A stretch of DNA of 45,980 bases from contig CAIJNL010000019.1 in NCBI GenBank assembly GCA_903822005.1, positions 1 through 45,980 on the forward strand, in the 5' to 3' direction. The notes under the pieces are model-generated. The model had not been told where the DNA came from and made no database searches. It was given only the letters and a program-made list of their open reading frames with translations. Shown piece by piece: positions 9,750-22,426 of this stretch (the stretch's first letter is position 1; the number at the start of each line of letters is the position of its first letter). The translations under genes were made by a program, and so were the position numbers. The DNA is from an uncultured Nitrospiraceae bacterium. Its GTDB lineage: Bacteria; Nitrospirota; Thermodesulfovibrionia; Thermodesulfovibrionales; Dissulfurispiraceae.

Positions 9750-10811
9750 ATGGAATGTGCTGTCAGGCCGGACAACATCTTTTTCCGCGACTTTATCGAT
9801 AAGGCCAAGCAGCAACGATTGCCACTGGCGGGGGGTATTGACCTCACATCTAGATGCAATCTGAGTTGTGTGCATTGTTATGTTCAAAGAGGTTCAGATG
9901 AGCCTGAGATGCCCACCAGCCGCATATTGGAGATTGTAGACGAGATTGCCGCAGCCGGTTGTATGGACATGCTTGTAACAGGAGGCGAACCCCTGTTGCA
10001 TGGGGATTTTGTCGAGATATACCGATACATGAAGTTTAAGGGTATGCTTGTTACGGTATTTACAAACGGTACGCTTGTCACTGATGAGATAGCAGCGCTG
10101 TTTGCGGAACTGCCGCCATATGCGGTAGAGATAAGTCTTTACGGCGCAACTGATGCAACGTCTGACAGCATAACCGGCGTCGAGGAATCCATGAGCAAAT
10201 GCCTGGGAGGCGTGAAAAAGTTGCTTGGACATGACGTAAAAAATGTGCTCCTGAAGACCATGCTTATGACCTCCAATCGGCATGAGTACTATGCAATGGA
10301 GGCATTGGCGGTCAAGATGGGCCTTAAGTGGCGTATGGATGCGGCTATTAATGCGAGAGTTAACGGAGATACGGGGCCGCTTTCTCTGCGCGTATCCGCT
10401 GAAGAGGCAATCGAAAAGGAATTTGCCCTTGAAGCTAGGTTGCTCGATATGAAGAAATATTATGAGAGCTGTGTCGCGCTGCCTGCCGGAGATCGGCTTT
10501 ATGTCTGCGGGGCGGGTGTTTGTGGTTTTCATATAGACGCCTACGGCAATCTGCTCCCATGTCTGATGCCGACAGGCATTAAATACAGGTTAGAAAAAGG
10601 CAATTTTCTCGATAGCTGGCACAGTGTAATAAATGATATACTGAATAAAAGGGCACGGAAAGACTATCCGTGCAGGGGCTGCAAGTATGTGGCGTTGTGC
10701 TGTGCCTGTCCGGCAGTTTCAGGTCTCGAAACGGGGGATGAGCAGAAGCCATCGGCATATATGTGTGAAATGGGAAAGTTGCGATTTGAGGCAATTAAAA
10801 AGTTAGCATAA
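9750..10811 (+). CDS. radical SAM/SPASM peptide-modifying enzyme
   Basis: 353 residues. The radical SAM cluster motif is Cys36-x3-Cys40-x2-Cys43 (RCNLSCVHC), followed by the GGEPLL SAM-binding motif. The C-terminal SPASM region begins with YVCGAGVCGFHIDAYGNLLPC and ends with PCRGC, LCCAC and YMCEMG, enough cysteines for two auxiliary Fe-S clusters. Family members (PqqE, AnSME, thioether-forming maturases) use a 5'-deoxyadenosyl radical to crosslink or oxidise side chains of small peptides or proteins. The neighbours, PqqD two bases upstream and a three-cysteine peptide 13 nt downstream, make that peptide the likely substrate. Thioether formation on Cys34, Cys47 or Cys52 is the obvious hypothesis; the sequence alone does not show which residues react. 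Confidence 0.92.
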   Translation: MECAVRPDNIFFRDFIDKAKQQRLPLAGGIDLTSRCNLSCVHCYVQRGSDEPEMPTSRILEIVDEIAAAGCMDMLVTGGEPLLHGDFVEIYRYMKFKGMLVTVFTNGTLVTDEIAALFAELPPYAVEISLYGATDATSDSITGVEESMSKCLGGVKKLLGHDVKNVLLKTMLMTSNRHEYYAMEALAVKMGLKWRMDAAINARVNGDTGPLSLRVSAEEAIEKEFALEARLLDMKKYYESCVALPAGDRLYVCGAGVCGFHIDAYGNLLPCLMPTGIKYRLEKGNFLDSWHSVINDILNKRARKDYPCRGCKYVALCCACPAVSGLETGDEQKPSAYMCEMGKLRFEAIKKLA

Positions 10812-10824
10812 TTAAGGAGGTTAT

Positions 10825-10995
10825 ATGGATGCCAAAAAGATCAAGAATTCGAAGGCGGCGCAATATGAGAAGCCGACCTTGAGGATAATAGAACTGGCTG
10901 CCGAACAGGTGCTGGCTGGGAAATGCAAAACGTCGCAAGGTGCGTCTAATCTCCGTGGGAATTGCGCCTTTAATACCTGCTTTGCGCGAACATAA
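10825..10995 (+). CDS. putative RiPP precursor peptide, three cysteines
   Basis: A 56-residue frame with a perfect ribosome binding site (AAGGAGG, 5 nt before the ATG), placed between the radical SAM gene and the kinase. The N-terminal half is a leader: Lys-rich, then YEKPTLRIIELAAEQVLAG. The YxxPxL pattern at Tyr14-Pro17-Leu19 is the motif that PqqD-type recognition elements bind in lasso and related precursors. The C-terminal core runs from about Lys33 and holds Cys34, Cys47 and Cys52, with Gly, Ser, Asn and Thr in between. It ends Phe-Ala-Arg-Thr56. The leader/core break is probably after LAG31-32. No known family name is certain. The arrangement leader motif + PqqD + radical SAM/SPASM strongly supports a modified peptide, and the modification itself is unknown. 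Confidence 0.85.
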   Translation: MDAKKIKNSKAAQYEKPTLRIIELAAEQVLAGKCKTSQGASNLRGNCAFNTCFART

Positions 10996-11013
10996 TAATT
11001 GCCAAGTGTCGCT

Positions 11014-11943
11014 ATGTGGGAGAATGGACAGGGGATGCCTGGTTCTTGTATTGACTTTAAGATCGCCAATATAATAATAAGGATTGAAACTGCGCAACCT
11101 GTAGAAATCTGCGTATCAGACCCGGCATATGAATCGTTTATTTCAGAGGCTGCAAGGGAGCAGGGCAGTGATTTGGAGCTTAAGGTAGACTTGGATGGCC
11201 TGCCAGATTTAAGAGGTATGTCTTCTTTTGGCGACGCGGAAGACGAGTGGGATATATATACAAGAGATGGCGACTATTTTGTAATAAAGAAGCAATATCG
11301 TGCAGATATTCAACCGTTATGGGTGTTGCAGTTGCGAAGCGATTTTGAACGTGGCACGCTTTATTGCAGGCCTGAAATAGCAGAAGCAGCCCAAAATGAC
11401 GGCTTGCTTGAGAATCCACTTTGCTATCCTCTGGACACTACGCTGATGATGTACAGGCTGACGATAGAAGGTGGAGTTATTGTCCACGCGGCGGGTATAG
11501 AGATAGACGGCAGGACATACATATTCCCCGGCAAGTCTGGAGCAGGCAAGAGCACAATATCGCGTCAGTTCAGCAATAATGAAGATGTAATATGCTTGAG
11601 CGATGACCGCATTATTGTGAGAAAAGAATGCGGTCATCATATTGCATACGGAACGCCTTGGCCGAGCGACGTGCAGATTGCGATTAACAGGGGCGCACCG
11701 CTGGCAGGTATAGTCTTTTTGTCCCACGCAACTGAAAACAGCATCAGGCGCATAACTTCTGCTGAGGCCTTGCAGAGGTTCATACCAACAGTCTCTATTC
11801 CGTGGTACGATCGGCAGGCAAGCGACATGATACTCTCTTTTTGCGATGGTCTGCTATCAAGCATTCCTCTGTATGAAATCAGCTTTTGCCCCGGCCCTGA
11901 AGTTGCTGATTTTTTTGTCGATACTTTCAGAAAGCATATTTGA
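11014..11943 (+). CDS. HprK-like kinase of the peptide locus
   Basis: About 309 residues, similar to the C-terminal kinase half of HPr kinase/phosphorylase. The P-loop is GKSGAGKS (about 173-180), followed by CLSDDRIIV (Asp197-Asp198), the HprK-type metal-binding region. VHAAGIEIDGRTYIFPG precedes the P-loop, as in HprK. The N-terminal 150 residues do not resemble the HprK N-domain and may bind the substrate. No HPr gene is nearby. In the paeninodin lasso-peptide cluster an HprK homologue phosphorylates the C-terminal serine of the precursor, so the C-terminal Thr of the peptide encoded just upstream is a candidate target (inference). The start is uncertain: TTG 10999, ATG 11014 and ATG 11035 are all in frame, and only 11035 has a GGGAG upstream. 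Confidence 0.82.
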   Translation: MWENGQGMPGSCIDFKIANIIIRIETAQPVEICVSDPAYESFISEAAREQGSDLELKVDLDGLPDLRGMSSFGDAEDEWDIYTRDGDYFVIKKQYRADIQPLWVLQLRSDFERGTLYCRPEIAEAAQNDGLLENPLCYPLDTTLMMYRLTIEGGVIVHAAGIEIDGRTYIFPGKSGAGKSTISRQFSNNEDVICLSDDRIIVRKECGHHIAYGTPWPSDVQIAINRGAPLAGIVFLSHATENSIRRITSAEALQRFIPTVSIPWYDRQASDMILSFCDGLLSSIPLYEISFCPGPEVADFFVDTFRKHI

Positions 11944-14187: not shown

Positions 14188-14904
14188 ATGTGGTCCCTCA
14201 TGGGCAGTCCTCGGTGTTCAGAAATGACTAGGGCAAGTACTTCCCGCACTTCAGGAGACAAAAAGATTGTCGGCAGGATATACAGGAAGCTCTTCTCTTT
14301 CTACGGCTGCCGGGACTGGTGGCCTGGTGACAGCCCTTTTGAGGTAGCTGTTGGCGCAATCCTCACGCAGAATACCAACTGGGCCAACGTCGAGAAGGCG
14401 ATTGCCAATCTGAAACATCATAGAGCATTAAGCGCAAAGGCATTGCATGAGATGCCCATTCAGGATATTGCCTCCCTGATCAGGCCCTCGGGTTATTACA
14501 ATGTCAAGGCAAAGAGACTAAAGGCTTTTATAGGGTTTCTGATGGCCGCATATGAGGGTGATATGGCCCTTATGGCCGGAACTTCAACAGAAAGGCTAAG
14601 GGTTGATCTGCTGGCCATAAATGGTGTCGGTCAGGAGACGGCTGATTCTATTCTTCTGTACGCACTCAACAGGCCCGTATTTGTTATAGACGCTTATACG
14701 AAAAGGGTCTTTTCACGTCACGGCATTATGGATGTGAGGGCGGGTTATGAGGAATGCCAGAATCTGTTCCATGGCAGCATGCAGGCAGATACCGCTGTTT
14801 ACAACGAATATCATGCGCTGATAGTAAGTGTCGGAAAGGAGTTCTGCAGGCCGGCGCCCAGGTGCGCGCGCTGCCCGCTCGAAAAAATTCCTCACGACTG
14901 TTAA
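14188..14904 (+). CDS. EndoIII-superfamily DNA glycosylase, MagIII-like
   Basis: Up to 238 residues of the HhH-GPD fold. WWPGDSPFEVAVGAILTQNT and IRPSGYYNVKAKRL match the 3-methyladenine DNA glycosylase III (MagIII) type rather than classical Nth. The helix-hairpin-helix is LLAINGVGQETAD (141-153) and the catalytic Asp is Asp168 (FVIDAY). The Nth lyase lysine is replaced by Glu150, so it should be a monofunctional glycosylase that removes alkylated bases. A C-terminal cluster Cys220-x5-Cys226-x2-Cys229-x8-Cys238 probably binds 4Fe-4S with spacing unlike Nth (x6, x2, x5). In-frame ATGs at 14200 and 14224 are possible starts, and none has a good ribosome binding site. The end lies 22 nt before the MATE start. 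Confidence 0.82.
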   Translation: MWSLMGSPRCSEMTRASTSRTSGDKKIVGRIYRKLFSFYGCRDWWPGDSPFEVAVGAILTQNTNWANVEKAIANLKHHRALSAKALHEMPIQDIASLIRPSGYYNVKAKRLKAFIGFLMAAYEGDMALMAGTSTERLRVDLLAINGVGQETADSILLYALNRPVFVIDAYTKRVFSRHGIMDVRAGYEECQNLFHGSMQADTAVYNEYHALIVSVGKEFCRPAPRCARCPLEKIPHDC

Positions 14905-14926
14905 TTTAACCGGAGAAAAAAAGACT

Positions 14927-16300
14927 TTGAACGCACAGGAAAACAGGATCGATCTGACCAAAGGCAGTCTGTGGGCAAATATCTGGCATATGTCGTGGCC
15001 GATGCTTGTCATCATGTTCCTCAATTTTTTTGTCGGGGTCGTGGATGTATATGTGGCCGGACTTATCAGCCCTCAGGTACAGGCCGCTGTCGGTTTTGTA
15101 AGCCAGATATTGTTCCTGACCATAATACTTGCCAATGCCATCAGCATTGGGGGATTGGCGCTTGTTGCGAGGGCCGAAGGGGCCGGTGATTCAGCAAGTG
15201 CCGTGGCAGTCGCACGGCAGGCCCTCATGTTCGGCTGTATTGTGGCTGTGGTGATTACTGTTGCCGTACTGCTGTTCTACAGGCAGATAGTGATGCTGAC
15301 AGGTTTCCCGGAGCAGATAGCTGAAATAGCCGGAAATTTTCTGCAAGTATATGCTGTTGCTCTGGGGTTCAGCTATATTCTCATTATCTCAAATGCGATG
15401 TTCAGGGCGAGCGGCGAGGTCAGGAAGCCCCTTATGACAATGACGGTAGTCAGCGTCCTGAATATTGCGGCCAACTTCATTTTTGTGTTTGGTATTGCCG
15501 CTTTTCCCGGACTCGGATATATCGGCATAGCAGTGGCATCGGCATTTGCAGTTGCGGTCGGTGTTTTTATAAATCTCATTCAATTCATGTTTGGCAGGTG
15601 GGCTGCCATCTATAAACGCCCGTGGTATCTCTCTTTTGATATCCTGAAAAGAATGCTCTCGATCAGCTGGCCGTCTGCCATGCTCCAGATTGCGTGGAAT
15701 GCGGGCAGTATCATCCTTTACAACATTCTTGGCAGGCTCGGTGATGCATCAATAACTTCAATTGCCGCAATGACTAACGGATTCAGGATTGAGGCTGTCA
15801 TATTCCTTCCGGCCTTCGCGCTGAATATGGCGGCATCCGTGCTGATAGGGCAGAATCTGGGGGCGGGTAACCCGGACAGGGCGGAAGAACTGGGATGGAA
15901 GATCGGGAAAACAGCTGTCGTTCTCATGAGCGCAATGGCCCTCGTCATATTCATATTTGCGGAACAGATCGCCTCGGTCTTCACTAATGATCAGGCGGTG
16001 CTTGCGGCAACGGTCATGTACTTACGGCTGAATATGCTTTCAGAACCCTTTATGGCATTAAGTGTTGTGCTCGGCGGCGGTCTGCAGGGGGCCGGAGATA
16101 CCCGCGGGACCATGTGGGTTGTGGTTACAGCAATGTGGCTGATCCGGCTTCCGATGGCTTATGTGCTTGCCCATTCGCTTGGATATGGGGCCACAGGAGT
16201 ATGGGTCGCAATGATAGTATCCATGTTTATCCAGGGAACAATGATGGCCAGAAGGTTCCGAGGCGGCAAATGGAAACTGGTCAAGATAGAGAGTATTTGA
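14927..16300 (+). CDS. MATE-family efflux transporter
   Basis: 457 residues with about 12 membrane segments in two homologous halves. It exports cationic drugs or metabolites by Na+ or H+ antiport across the inner membrane. Family hallmarks are the N-terminal GSLWANIWHMSWPMLV, the FRASGEVRKPL segment at the end of the first half and LGGGLQGAGDTRG in the second. The frame stays open back to 14828, but a TTG at 14927 with GGAG 11 nt upstream gives the family's normal length and removes a basic, non-family extension that overlaps the glycosylase gene. Substrate is unknown. Confidence 0.9.
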   Translation: MNAQENRIDLTKGSLWANIWHMSWPMLVIMFLNFFVGVVDVYVAGLISPQVQAAVGFVSQILFLTIILANAISIGGLALVARAEGAGDSASAVAVARQALMFGCIVAVVITVAVLLFYRQIVMLTGFPEQIAEIAGNFLQVYAVALGFSYILIISNAMFRASGEVRKPLMTMTVVSVLNIAANFIFVFGIAAFPGLGYIGIAVASAFAVAVGVFINLIQFMFGRWAAIYKRPWYLSFDILKRMLSISWPSAMLQIAWNAGSIILYNILGRLGDASITSIAAMTNGFRIEAVIFLPAFALNMAASVLIGQNLGAGNPDRAEELGWKIGKTAVVLMSAMALVIFIFAEQIASVFTNDQAVLAATVMYLRLNMLSEPFMALSVVLGGGLQGAGDTRGTMWVVVTAMWLIRLPMAYVLAHSLGYGATGVWVAMIVSMFIQGTMMARRFRGGKWKLVKIESI

Positions 16301-16382
16301 TCTGTTTGATGCGGAATTAAGAAATATTTAAGTATAATTAAGGGATAAGTAAATCCTAACTTTTTACATGCGGGAGAGCCTG

Positions 16383-17600
16383 ATGCTCAAATTATTTAAC
16401 ACCTTCGGCAAAAAGACAGAGACTTTCAAGCCGGTAAATCCTAAAGCAGTGAGTGTTTTTACCTGCGGACCTTCAGTTTATCAGCGGGCCCACATAGGCA
16501 ATATGCGCACCTTTCTGTTTGAGGACGCCCTCGTGCGTTATCTCGAATATCTGGGCTATAACGTCAAGCGTGGAATGAATATAACGGACGTTGAGGACAA
16601 GGCGATAAGCCAGGCGATAAAGGAAAAAATAAGTCTCAAGAAAATGACTGACAGGAATATCAAACAGTTTGTCACTGAGATGAAGATGCTTGGCATGAAG
16701 GCGCCTGATTATCTTCCGAGGGCTTCCGATCATGTTGATCGGGCCGCGGACATTATTCAGGCGCTTCTTGACAAGGGAATAGCATACAGGTATCGGGAAA
16801 ATATATATTTTGATCCGCTGAAATTCAGGGGCTTTGGAAAGCTTTTTGGCCTTGACATGTCTAAATGGCCGAAGAAAAAAATAAGATTTCACAAGGACAC
16901 ATATCCGGGCATTCAGTGGAACCTTGGCGATTTTATCTTGTGGCATGGATATGTGGAAGGAGACAGGTTTTACTGGGACACGAAGATAGGCCGTGGCCGC
17001 CCTTCCTGGAACGTACAGGACCCCAGCATGATTGTAGATTATTTCGATGAGACATTGTCGATATATTGCGGCGGGATAGATAATCTTTACCGTCATCACG
17101 ATTATCTGCTCGCGATACTCGAATCCGTAAGGCCATTCAGGATGGCGCGCTACTGGCTCCATGGCCGCCACCTGTTTGTGGACGGCAGGAAAATGTCTAA
17201 GAGTAAAGGAAGCATAATCTATACTGAAGACCTGCTGAAGCGGGGTTATTCGGCCGCTGAGGTGCGCTTCTTTTTAATATACGGGCACTACAGGAGCACA
17301 TTGAATTATTCAGACTTGCGGATGAAATCATCTGCCCGCAGGCTGTCTGATTTCAGAAAGGCCGTGGGTGTTATCCGGAAGCAGGCAGGGAATTCTGCGT
17401 CTGTTCAGAGCAGTTTGTCCGAAAGTTTAAAAAAGATGTTTGGCGGGGGCATGGACCTGGACCTCGATGTCAGGACAGCATTCGATAGCATTCATAAAAT
17501 AATAGCCGGCATCAATCCTGCTGAACTGAAGCCGGCTGAGGCAGCAGGGATTATCAGGACACTGCAAGAAATAGACACTGTTCTGAGGGTTATTATTTAG
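16383..17600 (+). CDS. cysteinyl-tRNA synthetase paralogue lacking zinc ligands and C-terminal domain
   Basis: 405 residues, class I aminoacyl-tRNA synthetase of the CysRS family. The start MLKLFNTF matches genuine CysRS and has GGGAG 8 nt upstream. The HIGH-type motif is HIGN and KMSKSKG is intact, so adenylate formation is plausible. Of the four zinc ligands of E. coli CysRS (Cys28, Cys209, His234, Glu238), Cys28 and the His are kept. The WHIECSAM block is WNVQDPSM here (Cys209 to Asp) and PHHENE is RHHDYL (Glu238 to Leu). Zinc is what selects cysteine, so another substrate is likely. The protein ends about 55 residues short of CysRS, removing most of the anticodon-binding region. It may be an amino-acid:small-molecule ligase like MshC, or a degenerate duplicate. 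Confidence 0.85.
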   Translation: MLKLFNTFGKKTETFKPVNPKAVSVFTCGPSVYQRAHIGNMRTFLFEDALVRYLEYLGYNVKRGMNITDVEDKAISQAIKEKISLKKMTDRNIKQFVTEMKMLGMKAPDYLPRASDHVDRAADIIQALLDKGIAYRYRENIYFDPLKFRGFGKLFGLDMSKWPKKKIRFHKDTYPGIQWNLGDFILWHGYVEGDRFYWDTKIGRGRPSWNVQDPSMIVDYFDETLSIYCGGIDNLYRHHDYLLAILESVRPFRMARYWLHGRHLFVDGRKMSKSKGSIIYTEDLLKRGYSAAEVRFFLIYGHYRSTLNYSDLRMKSSARRLSDFRKAVGVIRKQAGNSASVQSSLSESLKKMFGGGMDLDLDVRTAFDSIHKIIAGINPAELKPAEAAGIIRTLQEIDTVLRVII

Positions 17601-18487: not shown

Positions 18488-21400
18488 ATGCTAAAAAGAA
18501 AAAAGGTGGGCGAGTACGCGGGGAAGGACAAGAGAATATTGGAGCGGCCTTTTTTCGGCTCCATTGTGCCAGCGGTCAGCTCTTTCTTTATTTGTATTTT
18601 TGCGATATGCATGTTTTGTTTAATCTCTTATACATCTGCTAGTGCGTGTAGTGAGCACCCATGGGGAGGCGAAGGGGTAGCTTGTAATATCGGGCCTCAT
18701 ACTGCTTCTGATTTTTATACGAAAGGATCAATTTTACAATACTCTGTCCAAGAAAATGATCATTTGAAATACTATTCATACGTCATTCCGGAAGATGGGT
18801 ATTATGTTGCTGTAACTACCAAGACGGACATGCTTGGTGGAATAAATGGTGATATTTATTGTGAACCTGACTGCTCACATTGGTATGGGAGTTGCCAGCC
18901 ACCTGCTCCGACACAAGTTGGATGGGATGCCATTGTTGCGACTCCGACAGCCCAAGCTTCATGGTCATATGAGATATGGGGTGGAGAATGCGTAATATAC
19001 GGGACTGCTTCTAGTACATATCAAATTTACGCAAAGTTTCTTGCACGAAGCAACACCGACACCAACGACACAGGCGATCCATGTAATAACAGTGTCCCTG
19101 CCGAATCCTCAGCCAACTTGGCGAGCGGCAATCTTTATCATTCCCAGAAGGTAGCCGGGCTTGCCTTCTCTTACAACAGCATAGACCCGTACTCTGGCCC
19201 ACTGGGTAAGGGCTGGACCCACAACTTCAACCTCTCGATTACCCCGCAAAGCAACGGGACTCTTTTACTTAAAACTGGCGACGGTAACAACTTCTACTTT
19301 TCTCTTGCAATCGGTATATACACTCCCGCCGCAGGCAATGGCGATACTTCAACTATTGTCGCAAACACAGGTGGCAGTTATACCCGCACACAGAAAAACG
19401 GCATTGTCCAGACCTTTAACTCCGTCGGCAATCTAACCTCCATCACAGACAGAGATGGTAGAACCGCAACCCTTGCATATAGCGGCGGCAATCTTACGAG
19501 CGTTACAGACCCAAATGGCAGGGTGACTATATTCACATCGTCTTCCAATAAGATAACTTCAATCACCACCCCCAATGGCGGGGTTTATACTCTTGCTTAC
19601 TCTGGCGAATATCTGAGTTCAATCACCGACCCTCTCGGCAATGCATGGCAGTATACCTATAACTCCAATGGCAACATGCTCACAAAGACAGATCCTCTGG
19701 GCAATCTCGTATCTTATACCTACGACTCCACAGGCAGACTGCTGACATCCACTGACCCTGAAGGCAAGACCAGAGCCATGAACTACACCCAGTCGGGCAA
19801 TACATCCTTTACCGAAAAAGACGGCGGTGTCTGGACATATACATACGACACGACACTCCTTGCCAAGACCCAAAAGATAGACCCTCTGGGCAATATCACG
19901 AAATATGCCTATGACTTAAACAGAAACCTTATATCCGAAACTGCACCAGACAACAGCGTAACAGCTTATGCCTATGATGCAAACAGCAACCTGACCTCTT
20001 TAACCGACCCTCAGGGCAACAAGACCAGCTATACCTATAACAGCCTGAACCTGGTCACCTCCATAACAGACCCAAAGACCGTTGTTACTTCGTTGACCTA
20101 TGATGCAAAAGGCAATCTGACAAAGATAACCGACCCTCTGGGGGGATCAAGGACATTGCAGTATGACGCCAAGGGCAATGTCATCTCACTCACCGACCCC
20201 AAGGGTGCCGTCACTTCATTTGCCTATGACGCACAGAACAATCTGACCAGCATCAAAGACTCTCTGGGCAACATCACCTCATTCACCTATGACGCTGCGG
20301 GCAACAGGCTGACCATGACCGACCCTCTTGCCAATGTCACCCACTATGCCTATAACAGCCTTAACCAGATGACACAGGTCACAGACCCCAAGGGCAACAT
20401 CACCCGGTTCACTTATGACTATAAGGGCAATGTGCTCACCACCACGGACGCAAACAACAACCCGACAAACTATGCATATAACTACCGCGGGCAGGTAACC
20501 CAGATAACCGATGCCCTGAACAACATCACAAGGCTAAACTACGGGGCAACTGGATGCAGTGGCGGATGCAATGGCGGAGCAGAAAAGCTAACAGCCCTGA
20601 CCGATGCGCTAAACAACATAACCAGCTATAGCTATGACCTGTTGGGCAGATTGTCCACAGAGACCGACCCGATTGGCAACGTGAACTCATATCAATATGA
20701 TGTAAAGAGCAATCTCACAAAAAAGACAAGACCTGACGGCACCAACATTGTCTACACATATGACCTTGCAAGCAGGCTGATACAGAAAACATACCCTGAC
20801 GGTAATGTTGCAGCTTTCCAGTATGACCAGGTTGGCAATATGACCTATGCAGGCAATCAGCATATTGCATACAACATGGTTTATGACGCCAACAGGCGGC
20901 TGAGTAGCATAACAGACTCAAATGGACGAGTCATCAAATATACATACGACAGCCTGGGCAACAGGACCCAGCTAACCTATCCGGATAATACAAAAGTGAA
21001 CTATGCCTATGACACTGCAAGCAGGCTGACAGGCATTGCGACCTTGCAAGGAACACTCGGCACCCTGAACTGGACATATGCGTATGACAGCCTGAGTAGG
21101 AGGACAAAACAGACTAACCCCAATGGCACCTCTGCAAACTACGCTTATGACCAGGCAAGCGGGCTCACCAGTTTGATCAATACTTTTTCGACCGGAGCAG
21201 TTATCAGCGGCTACAACTATACCCTTGATAATGTCGGCAATCGGCTTACCAAGGCCGACCAGAACGAGCAGATTAATTATACCTACGATGCCGTATACCA
21301 ATTGACTCAGGCCCAGCCGACTGCAAGTGCCCATGAAACATACTCCTACGACGCTGTGGGCAACAGGTTAATCGGCCCCAAGCCTCATAGGAAATATACT

Positions 21401-22426
21401 TATGATCATGCAAACCAGCTTGTCACAGAGAACAAACAGCAGTTCCAGCACGACGTGCATGGAAACCTCATTCAGCACATTAACGGCACGACAACTTTCA
21501 GCTATACTTATGATTATGAGAACCGGCTTGTACAGGCAGAAAAGAACGCAAACGGGATCATAACCATGGCACAGTATAAATACGACCCGTTTGGCCGGCG
21601 TATAGAGAAGAGTGTAACAAAAGATGGCGACACTGACACGACGAAATATGTTTATGACGGTGCTAGCATTATTGCCGAATATGACGAGACTAACGCACTG
21701 GGCAATCGCTACATTCAGGGTTTGGGTATCGATGAGCCTCTTGCAGTGCTGAAGAACAAGAATGTACATTATTATCATGCAGACGGTCTTGGTTCGATAA
21801 CAGCCTTGACTGATAAAAAACAGAATGTAGATGAAAGATTTGAATACGATTCCTTCGGAAAGATGACTCATACTGGATCGGTAGATCAACCGTACGCTTT
21901 CACAGGCAGGGAGTGGGATAAAGAAATGGGGATGTATTACTATCGTGCCAGATATTATGATGAAAAAACCGGGAGGTTTATTACTAAAGACCCAATGGGA
22001 TTCGGTGGCGGTGATGTGAATCTCTACCGCATGACTGATAGTGTCGGAAAACCCGCGCCCGTTGTAAATCCATATTGGTATGTCGATAGTGTCGGAAAAC
22101 CATGGCCGCTGACGAGTATGGGGCAGTTTATAGGCAATTCGCTTATGCTGCAATCCAACTTATACATTTACGCCGCAAACAATCCGATTAATAATACAGA
22201 TTCATCAGGTATGATATTAGACAATATTAAATGTTTTTATTATATGACTAAATGTGCGCAGGAAGCTTTAAAATGCAAAGAGAAAATGGAAAAGGAATCT
22301 AAATGCGATCCAGATAATGTGGATAAAACTCCTACTTCAGATAAATTATTTAAAGAATGTTGGCAAGGCACACCCGCATGTCAAAAGCAAATTGAAGCCT
22401 GCGGATCATATGTTCTTTCTCCTTAG
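18488..22426 (+). CDS. RHS/YD-repeat protein with short cysteine-rich C-terminal tip
   Basis: 1312 residues. A basic N-terminus and a hydrophobic segment (about 30-52, SSFFICIFAICMFCLISYTS) form a signal peptide or anchor. A Cys-containing beta domain follows (about 55-185). An RHS-type entry region (NLASGNLYHSQ, GKGWTHNFNLSI) leads into about 35 YD repeats (YTYDS.GN...TDPLGN) across roughly 300-1090, which in the family wrap into a hollow shell. The conserved RHS core motif is RYYDEKTGRFITKDPMGF (about 1155-1172). The end differs from neighbours: after LYIYAANNPINNTDSSG a 71-residue, Lys/Glu-rich, AT-rich tip holds seven cysteines. RHS tips are usually toxins released by autoproteolysis; this one matches no toxin I know. 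Two small membrane proteins follow directly and could be immunity or accessory proteins. Confidence 0.92.
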   Translation: MLKRKKVGEYAGKDKRILERPFFGSIVPAVSSFFICIFAICMFCLISYTSASACSEHPWGGEGVACNIGPHTASDFYTKGSILQYSVQENDHLKYYSYVIPEDGYYVAVTTKTDMLGGINGDIYCEPDCSHWYGSCQPPAPTQVGWDAIVATPTAQASWSYEIWGGECVIYGTASSTYQIYAKFLARSNTDTNDTGDPCNNSVPAESSANLASGNLYHSQKVAGLAFSYNSIDPYSGPLGKGWTHNFNLSITPQSNGTLLLKTGDGNNFYFSLAIGIYTPAAGNGDTSTIVANTGGSYTRTQKNGIVQTFNSVGNLTSITDRDGRTATLAYSGGNLTSVTDPNGRVTIFTSSSNKITSITTPNGGVYTLAYSGEYLSSITDPLGNAWQYTYNSNGNMLTKTDPLGNLVSYTYDSTGRLLTSTDPEGKTRAMNYTQSGNTSFTEKDGGVWTYTYDTTLLAKTQKIDPLGNITKYAYDLNRNLISETAPDNSVTAYAYDANSNLTSLTDPQGNKTSYTYNSLNLVTSITDPKTVVTSLTYDAKGNLTKITDPLGGSRTLQYDAKGNVISLTDPKGAVTSFAYDAQNNLTSIKDSLGNITSFTYDAAGNRLTMTDPLANVTHYAYNSLNQMTQVTDPKGNITRFTYDYKGNVLTTTDANNNPTNYAYNYRGQVTQITDALNNITRLNYGATGCSGGCNGGAEKLTALTDALNNITSYSYDLLGRLSTETDPIGNVNSYQYDVKSNLTKKTRPDGTNIVYTYDLASRLIQKTYPDGNVAAFQYDQVGNMTYAGNQHIAYNMVYDANRRLSSITDSNGRVIKYTYDSLGNRTQLTYPDNTKVNYAYDTASRLTGIATLQGTLGTLNWTYAYDSLSRRTKQTNPNGTSANYAYDQASGLTSLINTFSTGAVISGYNYTLDNVGNRLTKADQNEQINYTYDAVYQLTQAQPTASAHETYSYDAVGNRLIGPKPHRKYTYDHANQLVTENKQQFQHDVHGNLIQHINGTTTFSYTYDYENRLVQAEKNANGIITMAQYKYDPFGRRIEKSVTKDGDTDTTKYVYDGASIIAEYDETNALGNRYIQGLGIDEPLAVLKNKNVHYYHADGLGSITALTDKKQNVDERFEYDSFGKMTHTGSVDQPYAFTGREWDKEMGMYYYRARYYDEKTGRFITKDPMGFGGGDVNLYRMTDSVGKPAPVVNPYWYVDSVGKPWPLTSMGQFIGNSLMLQSNLYIYAANNPINNTDSSGMILDNIKCFYYMTKCAQEALKCKEKMEKESKCDPDNVDKTPTSDKLFKECWQGTPACQKQIEACGSYVLSP
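22037..22101 (+). repeat. 17-bp direct repeat inside the RHS core
   Basis: GATAGTGTCGGAAAACC occurs at 22037-22053 and 22085-22101, 48 nt (16 codons) apart and in frame. It encodes TDSVGKP and VDSVGKP. The repeat sits in a segment of about 48 residues that separates the DVNLY and YIYAANNPIN parts of the usually contiguous RHS core end. Confidence 0.8.

Follow-up and report, generated by a model that had tools for sequence, protein, structure and literature searches.

A CysRS-derived class I ligase family with a remodelled metal site and no anticodon-binding domain in Bacteria and Archaea

The forward strand of a 45,980-nucleotide stretch of DNA from an uncultured Nitrospiraceae bacterium (GenBank assembly GCA_903822005.1, contig CAIJNL010000019.1; the whole stretch is called the window below) carries at 16383–17600 a gene resembling that of cysteinyl-tRNA synthetase (CysRS), and this locus raises the question of what a CysRS-like protein does when part of its zinc site and its C-terminal domain are gone. 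A sequence-only reading had proposed a CysRS paralogue with a broken zinc site that probably activates something other than cysteine or no longer charges tRNA. Our results support the view that the protein is a class I ligase descended from CysRS that stands outside general translation, and that it belongs to a family of its own in Bacteria and Archaea. The features on which this view depends are listed here, with residues numbered on the 410-amino-acid product of the longer open reading frame, 16368–17600 (+).

16383–17600, + strand: CysRS-derived ligase without anticodon-binding domain, 405 amino acids (longer open reading frame from 16368)
16464–16466, + strand: codon of Cys33 (E. coli Cys28), invariant
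16491–16502, + strand: HIGN (HIGH-type) motif, residues 42–45
16866–16940, + strand: family-specific basic loop WPKKKIRFHKDTYPGIQWNLGDFIL, residues 167–191
17019–17021, + strand: codon of Asp218 (E. coli Cys209), Asp invariant within the family
17094–17096, + strand: codon of His243 (E. coli His234), invariant
17106–17108, + strand: codon of Leu247 (E. coli Glu238), a variable, non-acidic position
17190–17204, + strand: KMSKS motif, residues 275–279

The start at 16383 is preferred because a good Shine-Dalgarno sequence, GGGAGAG, lies immediately 5′ of it and because family members begin M-L-x-L-(F/Y)-N, giving the 405-residue version. In a residue-by-residue alignment with E. coli CysRS (1li5), Cys28, Cys209, His234 and Glu238, which we take to be the four zinc ligands of that enzyme, correspond to C33, D218, H243 and L247, so that the window protein presents Cys, Asp, His and Leu where CysRS has its four-ligand set. 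Trp205 and Asp229 of E. coli CysRS are retained, as is KMSKS, while the HIGH motif is present as HIGN, a form also found in some true CysRS. The kept motifs, the kept Cys28 and the changes of Cys209 to Asp and Glu238 to Leu had all been read correctly from the letters of the window.

Surveys of 47 distinct family rows and of 34 tree rows found Cys33, Asp218 and His243 invariant (47/47 and 34/34), with Leu, Thr, Asn, Ser, Ile or Val at position 247 across the 34. The Asp in 47/47 and the non-acidic residue in 34/34 are therefore not due to chance. Taken by itself, the missing Glu ligand says little, since its equivalent is also replaced in 3/34 CysRS-like rows (Asp, Val, Thr) and in 18/19 rows of a sister group, labelled TRU here and described below. 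Because Cys33, Asp218 and His243 are invariant, we regard the metal site as remodelled rather than lost; "broken" thus describes the two replaced ligands and not the site. From the conserved residues we infer that a three-ligand metal site (Cys33, Asp218, His243) could still hold a thiolate; a pocket without metal is possible. The same half of the pocket bears further fixed or near-fixed changes (E. coli numbering: His206 to Asn, Glu208 to Gln, Pro233 to Arg, Glu236 to Asp, Asn237 to Tyr), and the loop in the connective peptide (CP) region reads W-P-x-x-x-R-(F)-x-x-D-T-Y...W-N-x-G-D-F in the family, where it is basic and about four residues longer. The amino-acid pocket therefore differs from that of CysRS, which makes a changed substrate or acceptor likely. 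To this extent the earlier suggestion of a non-cysteine substrate or lost tRNA charging stands, although the substrate and the acceptor are both unproved. Across the family, little or no variation is seen at HIGN, KMSKS and other residues of the ATP site, and judged by these kept ATP motifs the family is probably catalytic. A regulator or binding protein that keeps the synthetase fold without catalytic activity would fit the replacement of two of the four zinc ligands, but it would have no need of these ATP-site residues and is very improbable.

In the window protein, Pfam matches class I catalytic domains only (PF01406 at 246 bits), with no match to DALR_2 or CysS_C, both of which are detected in the CysRS of the same genome. 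E. coli CysRS, at 461 amino acids, exceeds the protein by 56 residues, in line with the missing C-terminal anticodon domain and the tail about 55 residues short that had been noted beforehand, and the genome's own CysRS extends 70 residues past the last residue aligned with the window protein. Against TIGR00435, the CysRS equivalog model, it scores 308.5 bits, under the curated cut-off of 340. Of the 44 initial loci, 38 served as references, six (L046, L055, L071, L074, L077, L079) being dropped because the extended frame held a stop, residues were unknown, the sequence was short or a contig end cut it; alignment A1 holds 37 of the 38 (L072, a near-copy of L063, was omitted) plus the window protein. 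The AlphaFold model from A1 (pLDDT 93.8, pTM 0.93) superposes on CysRS 1u0b_B with Z 47.5 and a root-mean-square deviation (r.m.s.d.) of 2.1 over 384 residues, covering E. coli residues 1–395.

The gene is a paralogue, as first proposed. In a tree of 72 rows, unrooted (no outgroup) and without MshC, for which 34 family rows were hand-picked to cover lineages, 34/34 form one clade (support 100/100) on a stem of 0.89 changes per site with no CysRS inside, and the CysRS rows lie on the opposite side (support 94/93). In 38 sequences, 56 alignment columns are invariant, many of them conserved in CysRS too and many not. The ratio of non-synonymous to synonymous substitution rates (dN/dS) was usable in 4/7 pairs (0.07, 0.20, 0.11 and 0.10, the first with saturated dS), the other three giving no dS. 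The family is thus under purifying selection with a long separate evolution, and a decaying cysS copy is ruled out by the invariant residues, the low dN/dS and the spread over both domains. The family spans Nitrospirota, Desulfobacterota, two spirochaetes, Bathyarchaeia, Methanosarcinales and ANME-1, and its nearest named members carry the labels Nitrospira or Nitrospirae. It is present in 15/60 near-relative genomes, own genome included (at least 56% identity versus 30–35% for CysRS matches), and in 16/195 genomes of the own phylum. Elsewhere it was found in 10/297 genomes of the phylum of G233 (at least 528 bits versus at most 362 for other matches; one of the ten is split across two contigs), in 11/151 of the class of G220, Bathyarchaeia (at least 582 bits versus at most 408; there is one extra fragment with a stop), and in 12/119 of the order of G229, assigned by PF01406 scores of 250–271 bits.

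Does the window gene nevertheless serve as the housekeeping cysS? The source genome (3.23 Mb, 48 contigs, 100% complete) has a separate, normal cysS on contig 2 (G000:C2:200292-201512) that encodes a 492-residue CysRS scoring 454 bits for PF01406, which rules out a housekeeping CysRS role for the window protein and is what the sequence-only reading had asked to see. A second CysRS-like locus is found in 18/24 other family-carrying genomes; among these 18, the second locus is solely two pieces in G219 and solely a CysK-CysRS fusion in G233. The six without one are ANME-1 (G218), two Methanofastidiosia or related archaea (G224, G225), a Bathyarchaeota (G226), Methanococcoides (G229) and a Methanosarcinaceae (G231). 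SepRS scores above its curated cut-off in 4/6, the other two being of unknown completeness, and the presence of SepRS, the marker looked for, suggests that these four archaea can probably make Cys-tRNA indirectly. The fusion of CysK (PALP, cysteine synthase) to CysRS occurs in Desulfobacterota at L098:544-2859 (G233) and also at L106, L107 and L171–L176; its domains were seen for L098, the others being open frames of 767–796 amino acids, of which those on the tree group with L098. The L098 fusion has a degenerate KMSKS, and G233 shows no canonical cysS beyond the fusion and the present family.

Given these properties, we tentatively favour an adenylating ligase that joins cysteine, or an amino acid resembling it, to some acceptor that is not tRNA-Cys, the product being exported. 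MshC, known from actinobacteria, is the textbook example of a CysRS turned metabolite ligase and joins an amino acid to a sugar amine. In our model, the ligase would adenylate cysteine or a near analogue, possibly held by the three-ligand metal site, and would hand the aminoacyl group, in an MshC-like manner, not to tRNA-Cys but to a common small molecule or lipid that is probably anionic; because no dedicated partner gene is shared, this acceptor would be one present everywhere. In Nitrospirota, the product might leave through the MATE protein encoded upstream, and in Methanosarcinales and ANME-1 perhaps through a NodIJ-like ABC transporter.

14828–16300, + strand: MATE-family exporter, encoded upstream of the ligase in the same direction; in relatives, its orthologue and the ligase tend to occur together

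A MATE gene lies directly upstream in 19/65 loci (a set that includes near-copies, e.g. L063/L072 and L038/L156), all bacterial, at a distance of at most 70 bp in 17/19 and with an overlap in L036. Among 60 relatives, the MATE orthologue is present in 14/15 genomes with the ligase (on a different contig in G053) versus 3/45 without it (Fisher 5.5e-10, a p-value overstated because the genomes are related); the three genomes with MATE and no ligase all belong to a single genus, and in one of them a stop interrupts the MATE copy. A NodJ-like ABC-2 permease gene lies 4–21 bp downstream, converging, in 8/14 Methanosarcinales and ANME-1 loci, with the ATPase next in 7 of the 8, and the compared permeases beside archaeal family genes are 66–78% identical; an ABC permease is present in 12/12 Methanosarcinales with the ligase versus 36/107 without. 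At the bacterial locus L052, HlyD and ABC genes lie downstream of the ligase. Counting open reading frames of at least 150 amino acids and taking at least five predicted membrane spans as polytopic, we found polytopic frames enriched at −1 (18/46 loci, all MATE) and at +1 (8/52, all ABC-2), versus 26/407 at offsets 2 to 6. The family is thus linked to exporter genes over part of its range.

Charge also bears on the acceptor. The median isoelectric point (pI) is 9.25 for 77 distinct family members of at least 380 amino acids versus 5.98 for 76 CysRS rows (227 soluble-looking neighbouring frames have a median of 6.70, with 19% at 9 or above), and the mean net charge is +14 versus −8, spread over every region. 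Such a charge speaks for an acceptor that is anionic, be it RNA, a lipid or a phosphorylated metabolite. Together with the conserved basic loop of the CP region, it is also what would be expected if the enzyme placed an amino acid on a nucleotide of tRNA or another RNA, either modifying RNA or aminoacylating a special RNA, for which no anticodon domain would be needed. GluQ-RS (YadB), a shortened GluRS listed in Table 1 of PMC9437257 as glutamylating queuosine, offers a precedent for a shortened synthetase with a new acceptor; its parent synthetase is a different one, and for the present family an RNA acceptor is only a candidate. A stand-alone gene scattered over two domains likewise fits a universal acceptor such as RNA. 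Against this stand the link to MATE and ABC exporters, the absence of a regularly adjacent tRNA gene, a pI below 7.5 in 6/77 members and some true CysRS that are equally basic (pI above 9). We consider an RNA acceptor less probable than the favoured reading, but the generally basic charge leaves it a strong competitor.

Several observations weigh against the favoured ligase with an exported product. The usually high pI fits RNA at least equally well, and inheritance as a two-gene unit among related genomes can give the same MATE pattern. In archaea, the ABC genes converge on the ligase gene from the other strand, and many family-free genomes have them too. Many loci have no adjacent exporter, including the Bathyarchaeia examined, several Desulfobacterota and five divergent desulfobacterial loci, and no consistent biosynthetic partner gene besides the transporters was seen among the neighbours. 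Amino acid, acceptor and metal are unproved candidates only. As a bolder variant, which we consider improbable, it is tempting to speculate that a tRNA-independent class I ligase common to Bacteria and Archaea attaches an amino acid to an anionic membrane lipid, a lipid-linked glycan or a nucleotide-linked amine at the inner membrane face, with MATE or ABC-2 proteins flipping or exporting the product, and so parallels MprF while requiring no aminoacyl-tRNA. Such a ligase would explain why the surface is basic, why biosynthetic partners are otherwise missing, why the distribution is scattered and why exporters of different kinds repeatedly pair with the gene.

Could the protein instead charge an unusual tRNA (selC* type, 8/4 tRNA-Cys) with cysteine and so read UGA or a similar codon? 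According to the available part of PMC7609411, CysRS* of the selC* system in Desulfobacterales is a CysRS copy that, like the present family, lacks the anticodon domain and has an altered CP region, and selC* tRNAs are reported there from Nitrospirae, Thermodesulfobacteria and Proteobacteria. The family differs in that no selC* partner was seen: the best tRNA-Sec-like match in the own genome (47.9 bits, 86 nucleotides) is not strong, tRNA-Sec-like genes of at least 65 bits occur in 11/15 relatives with the ligase versus 38/45 without and so show no association (G000, G005, G019 and G020 are the carriers without a strong match), and the 44 family loci have neither a tRNA-Sec neighbour nor any regular tRNA neighbour. 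The missing association and neighbour speak against a selC* partnership, the family also occurs in archaea, from which selC* is not reported in that part of PMC7609411, and we doubt that any CysRS*-like role applies.

A back-up CysRS that needs less zinc and charges ordinary tRNA-Cys during metal stress would make sense of the changed metal ligands and of the normal cysS that coexists in most genomes. However, CysRS paralogues in Zur regulons retain their zinc ligands, according to the part of PMC2770081 available, and those of the family are changed; no zinc-uptake or Zur gene is among the annotated neighbours of the family loci, which in the window are MATE, DNA glycosylase and Rhs genes (Zur sites were not searched for); and some archaea with the family have SepRS but lack any other CysRS. 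This explanation, too, seems a poor prospect.

Beyond the exporters, the neighbours (radical SAM, phosphoglucomutase, peroxiredoxin, DNA polymerase IV, HD phosphohydrolase, RibD, fructose-bisphosphate aldolase) differ by lineage, so that a common pathway was rejected, and PADLOC gave no match for an anti-phage defence role. A peroxiredoxin gene adjoins the ligase in six Bathyarchaeia loci, L070 and L147, with type and side differing, and differing radical SAM enzymes are encoded directly 3′ of the family gene at L047:2132-3655, L041:3440-4591 and L048:9268-10542. The window itself holds at 18488–22426 a gene for an Rhs/YD-repeat protein of 1312 amino acids followed by two small open reading frames, and at 9750–11943 a SPASM-type radical SAM gene followed by an HprK-related (ScmC-like) gene, resembling a SynChlorMet-like peptide-modifying cassette. 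CysRS-like matches on plasmids come mostly from Klebsiella (503/624 records); many records carry a stretch 28–30% identical to the query, often with no listed gene (e.g. NC_006625.1:54185-55303), and no MshC is among the plasmid matches listed.

How the pocket was rebuilt is suggested by the sister group in Methanosarcinales, for which we coined the label TRU (L193–L196). Like the family, TRU lacks the C-terminal anticodon domain, is basic and has N-terminal residues in common with it, and six residues that both groups have are uncommon in CysRS; it differs in retaining Cys209 in 19/19 rows, a weak DALR_2 match and a CysRS-like pocket. Between the two groups, 25 positions are fixed differently, chiefly at 167–194 and 215–252. 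Taken with the unrooted tree, these features suggest a stepwise order in which the anticodon domain and the Glu may have been lost first, the change of Cys to Asp and the remodelling of pocket and loop following later. TRU genes (L193:1082-2320, L194–L196, L235–L250) are present in roughly 28/119 Methanosarcinales genomes by hit list, often as the sole CysRS-like gene, and follow an ABC-2 transporter pair in 8/16 loci with genes overlapping or touching. The adjacent permease is only about 30% identical to that beside the family and is thus not the same transporter.

If the favoured ligase reading is true, this would be a second, differently remodelled, cross-domain family of CysRS-derived ligases, paired with exporters, and would hint that anaerobic bacteria and archaea related to methanogens make an amino-acid conjugate as yet unknown; the family suggests stepwise rebuilding of a zinc-selected amino-acid pocket. 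It also urges caution with annotation: a cysS label would probably be wrong for some genes, among them the sole CysRS-like gene in certain archaea. The family is apparently undescribed. In a literature search that left subscription journals mostly aside, and in passages of PMC2922099, PMC9437257, PMC7609411, PMC2770081, PMC8762117, PMC5424206, PMC5370406 and PMC4351081, MshC, CysRS* and Zur paralogues are mentioned and the family is not.

Among known systems, CysRS (TIGR00435) shares with the family the fold, the ATP motifs, Cys28, His234 and about 30–35% identity, and provides the nearest solved structures (1u0b, 8qhp); the family departs from it in having no anticodon-binding or recognised DALR_2 domain, in the change of Cys209 to Asp, in the loss of Glu238, in the basic loop and in forming its own clade. 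MshC, the cysteine:GlcN-Ins ligase of mycothiol synthesis, resembles the family in its length of about 410 amino acids, its descent from CysRS, its lack of an anticodon domain and its similar fold. The comparison with MshC was by profile score and fold only, and on its own model, TIGR03447, the window protein scores 169.8 bits against a cut-off of 485.1. The structural model matches CysRS 8qhp with Z 47.0 and MshC 3c8z with Z 42.3 (r.m.s.d. 2.3, 369 residues), and Foldseek agrees. The MshC precedent, invoked from the start, is therefore a useful analogy for the mode of action rather than a sign of closest kinship: by profile score (308 versus 170 bits, and also 317 versus 183 bits) and by structure (Z 47.5 versus 42.3), the family is nearer CysRS than MshC.
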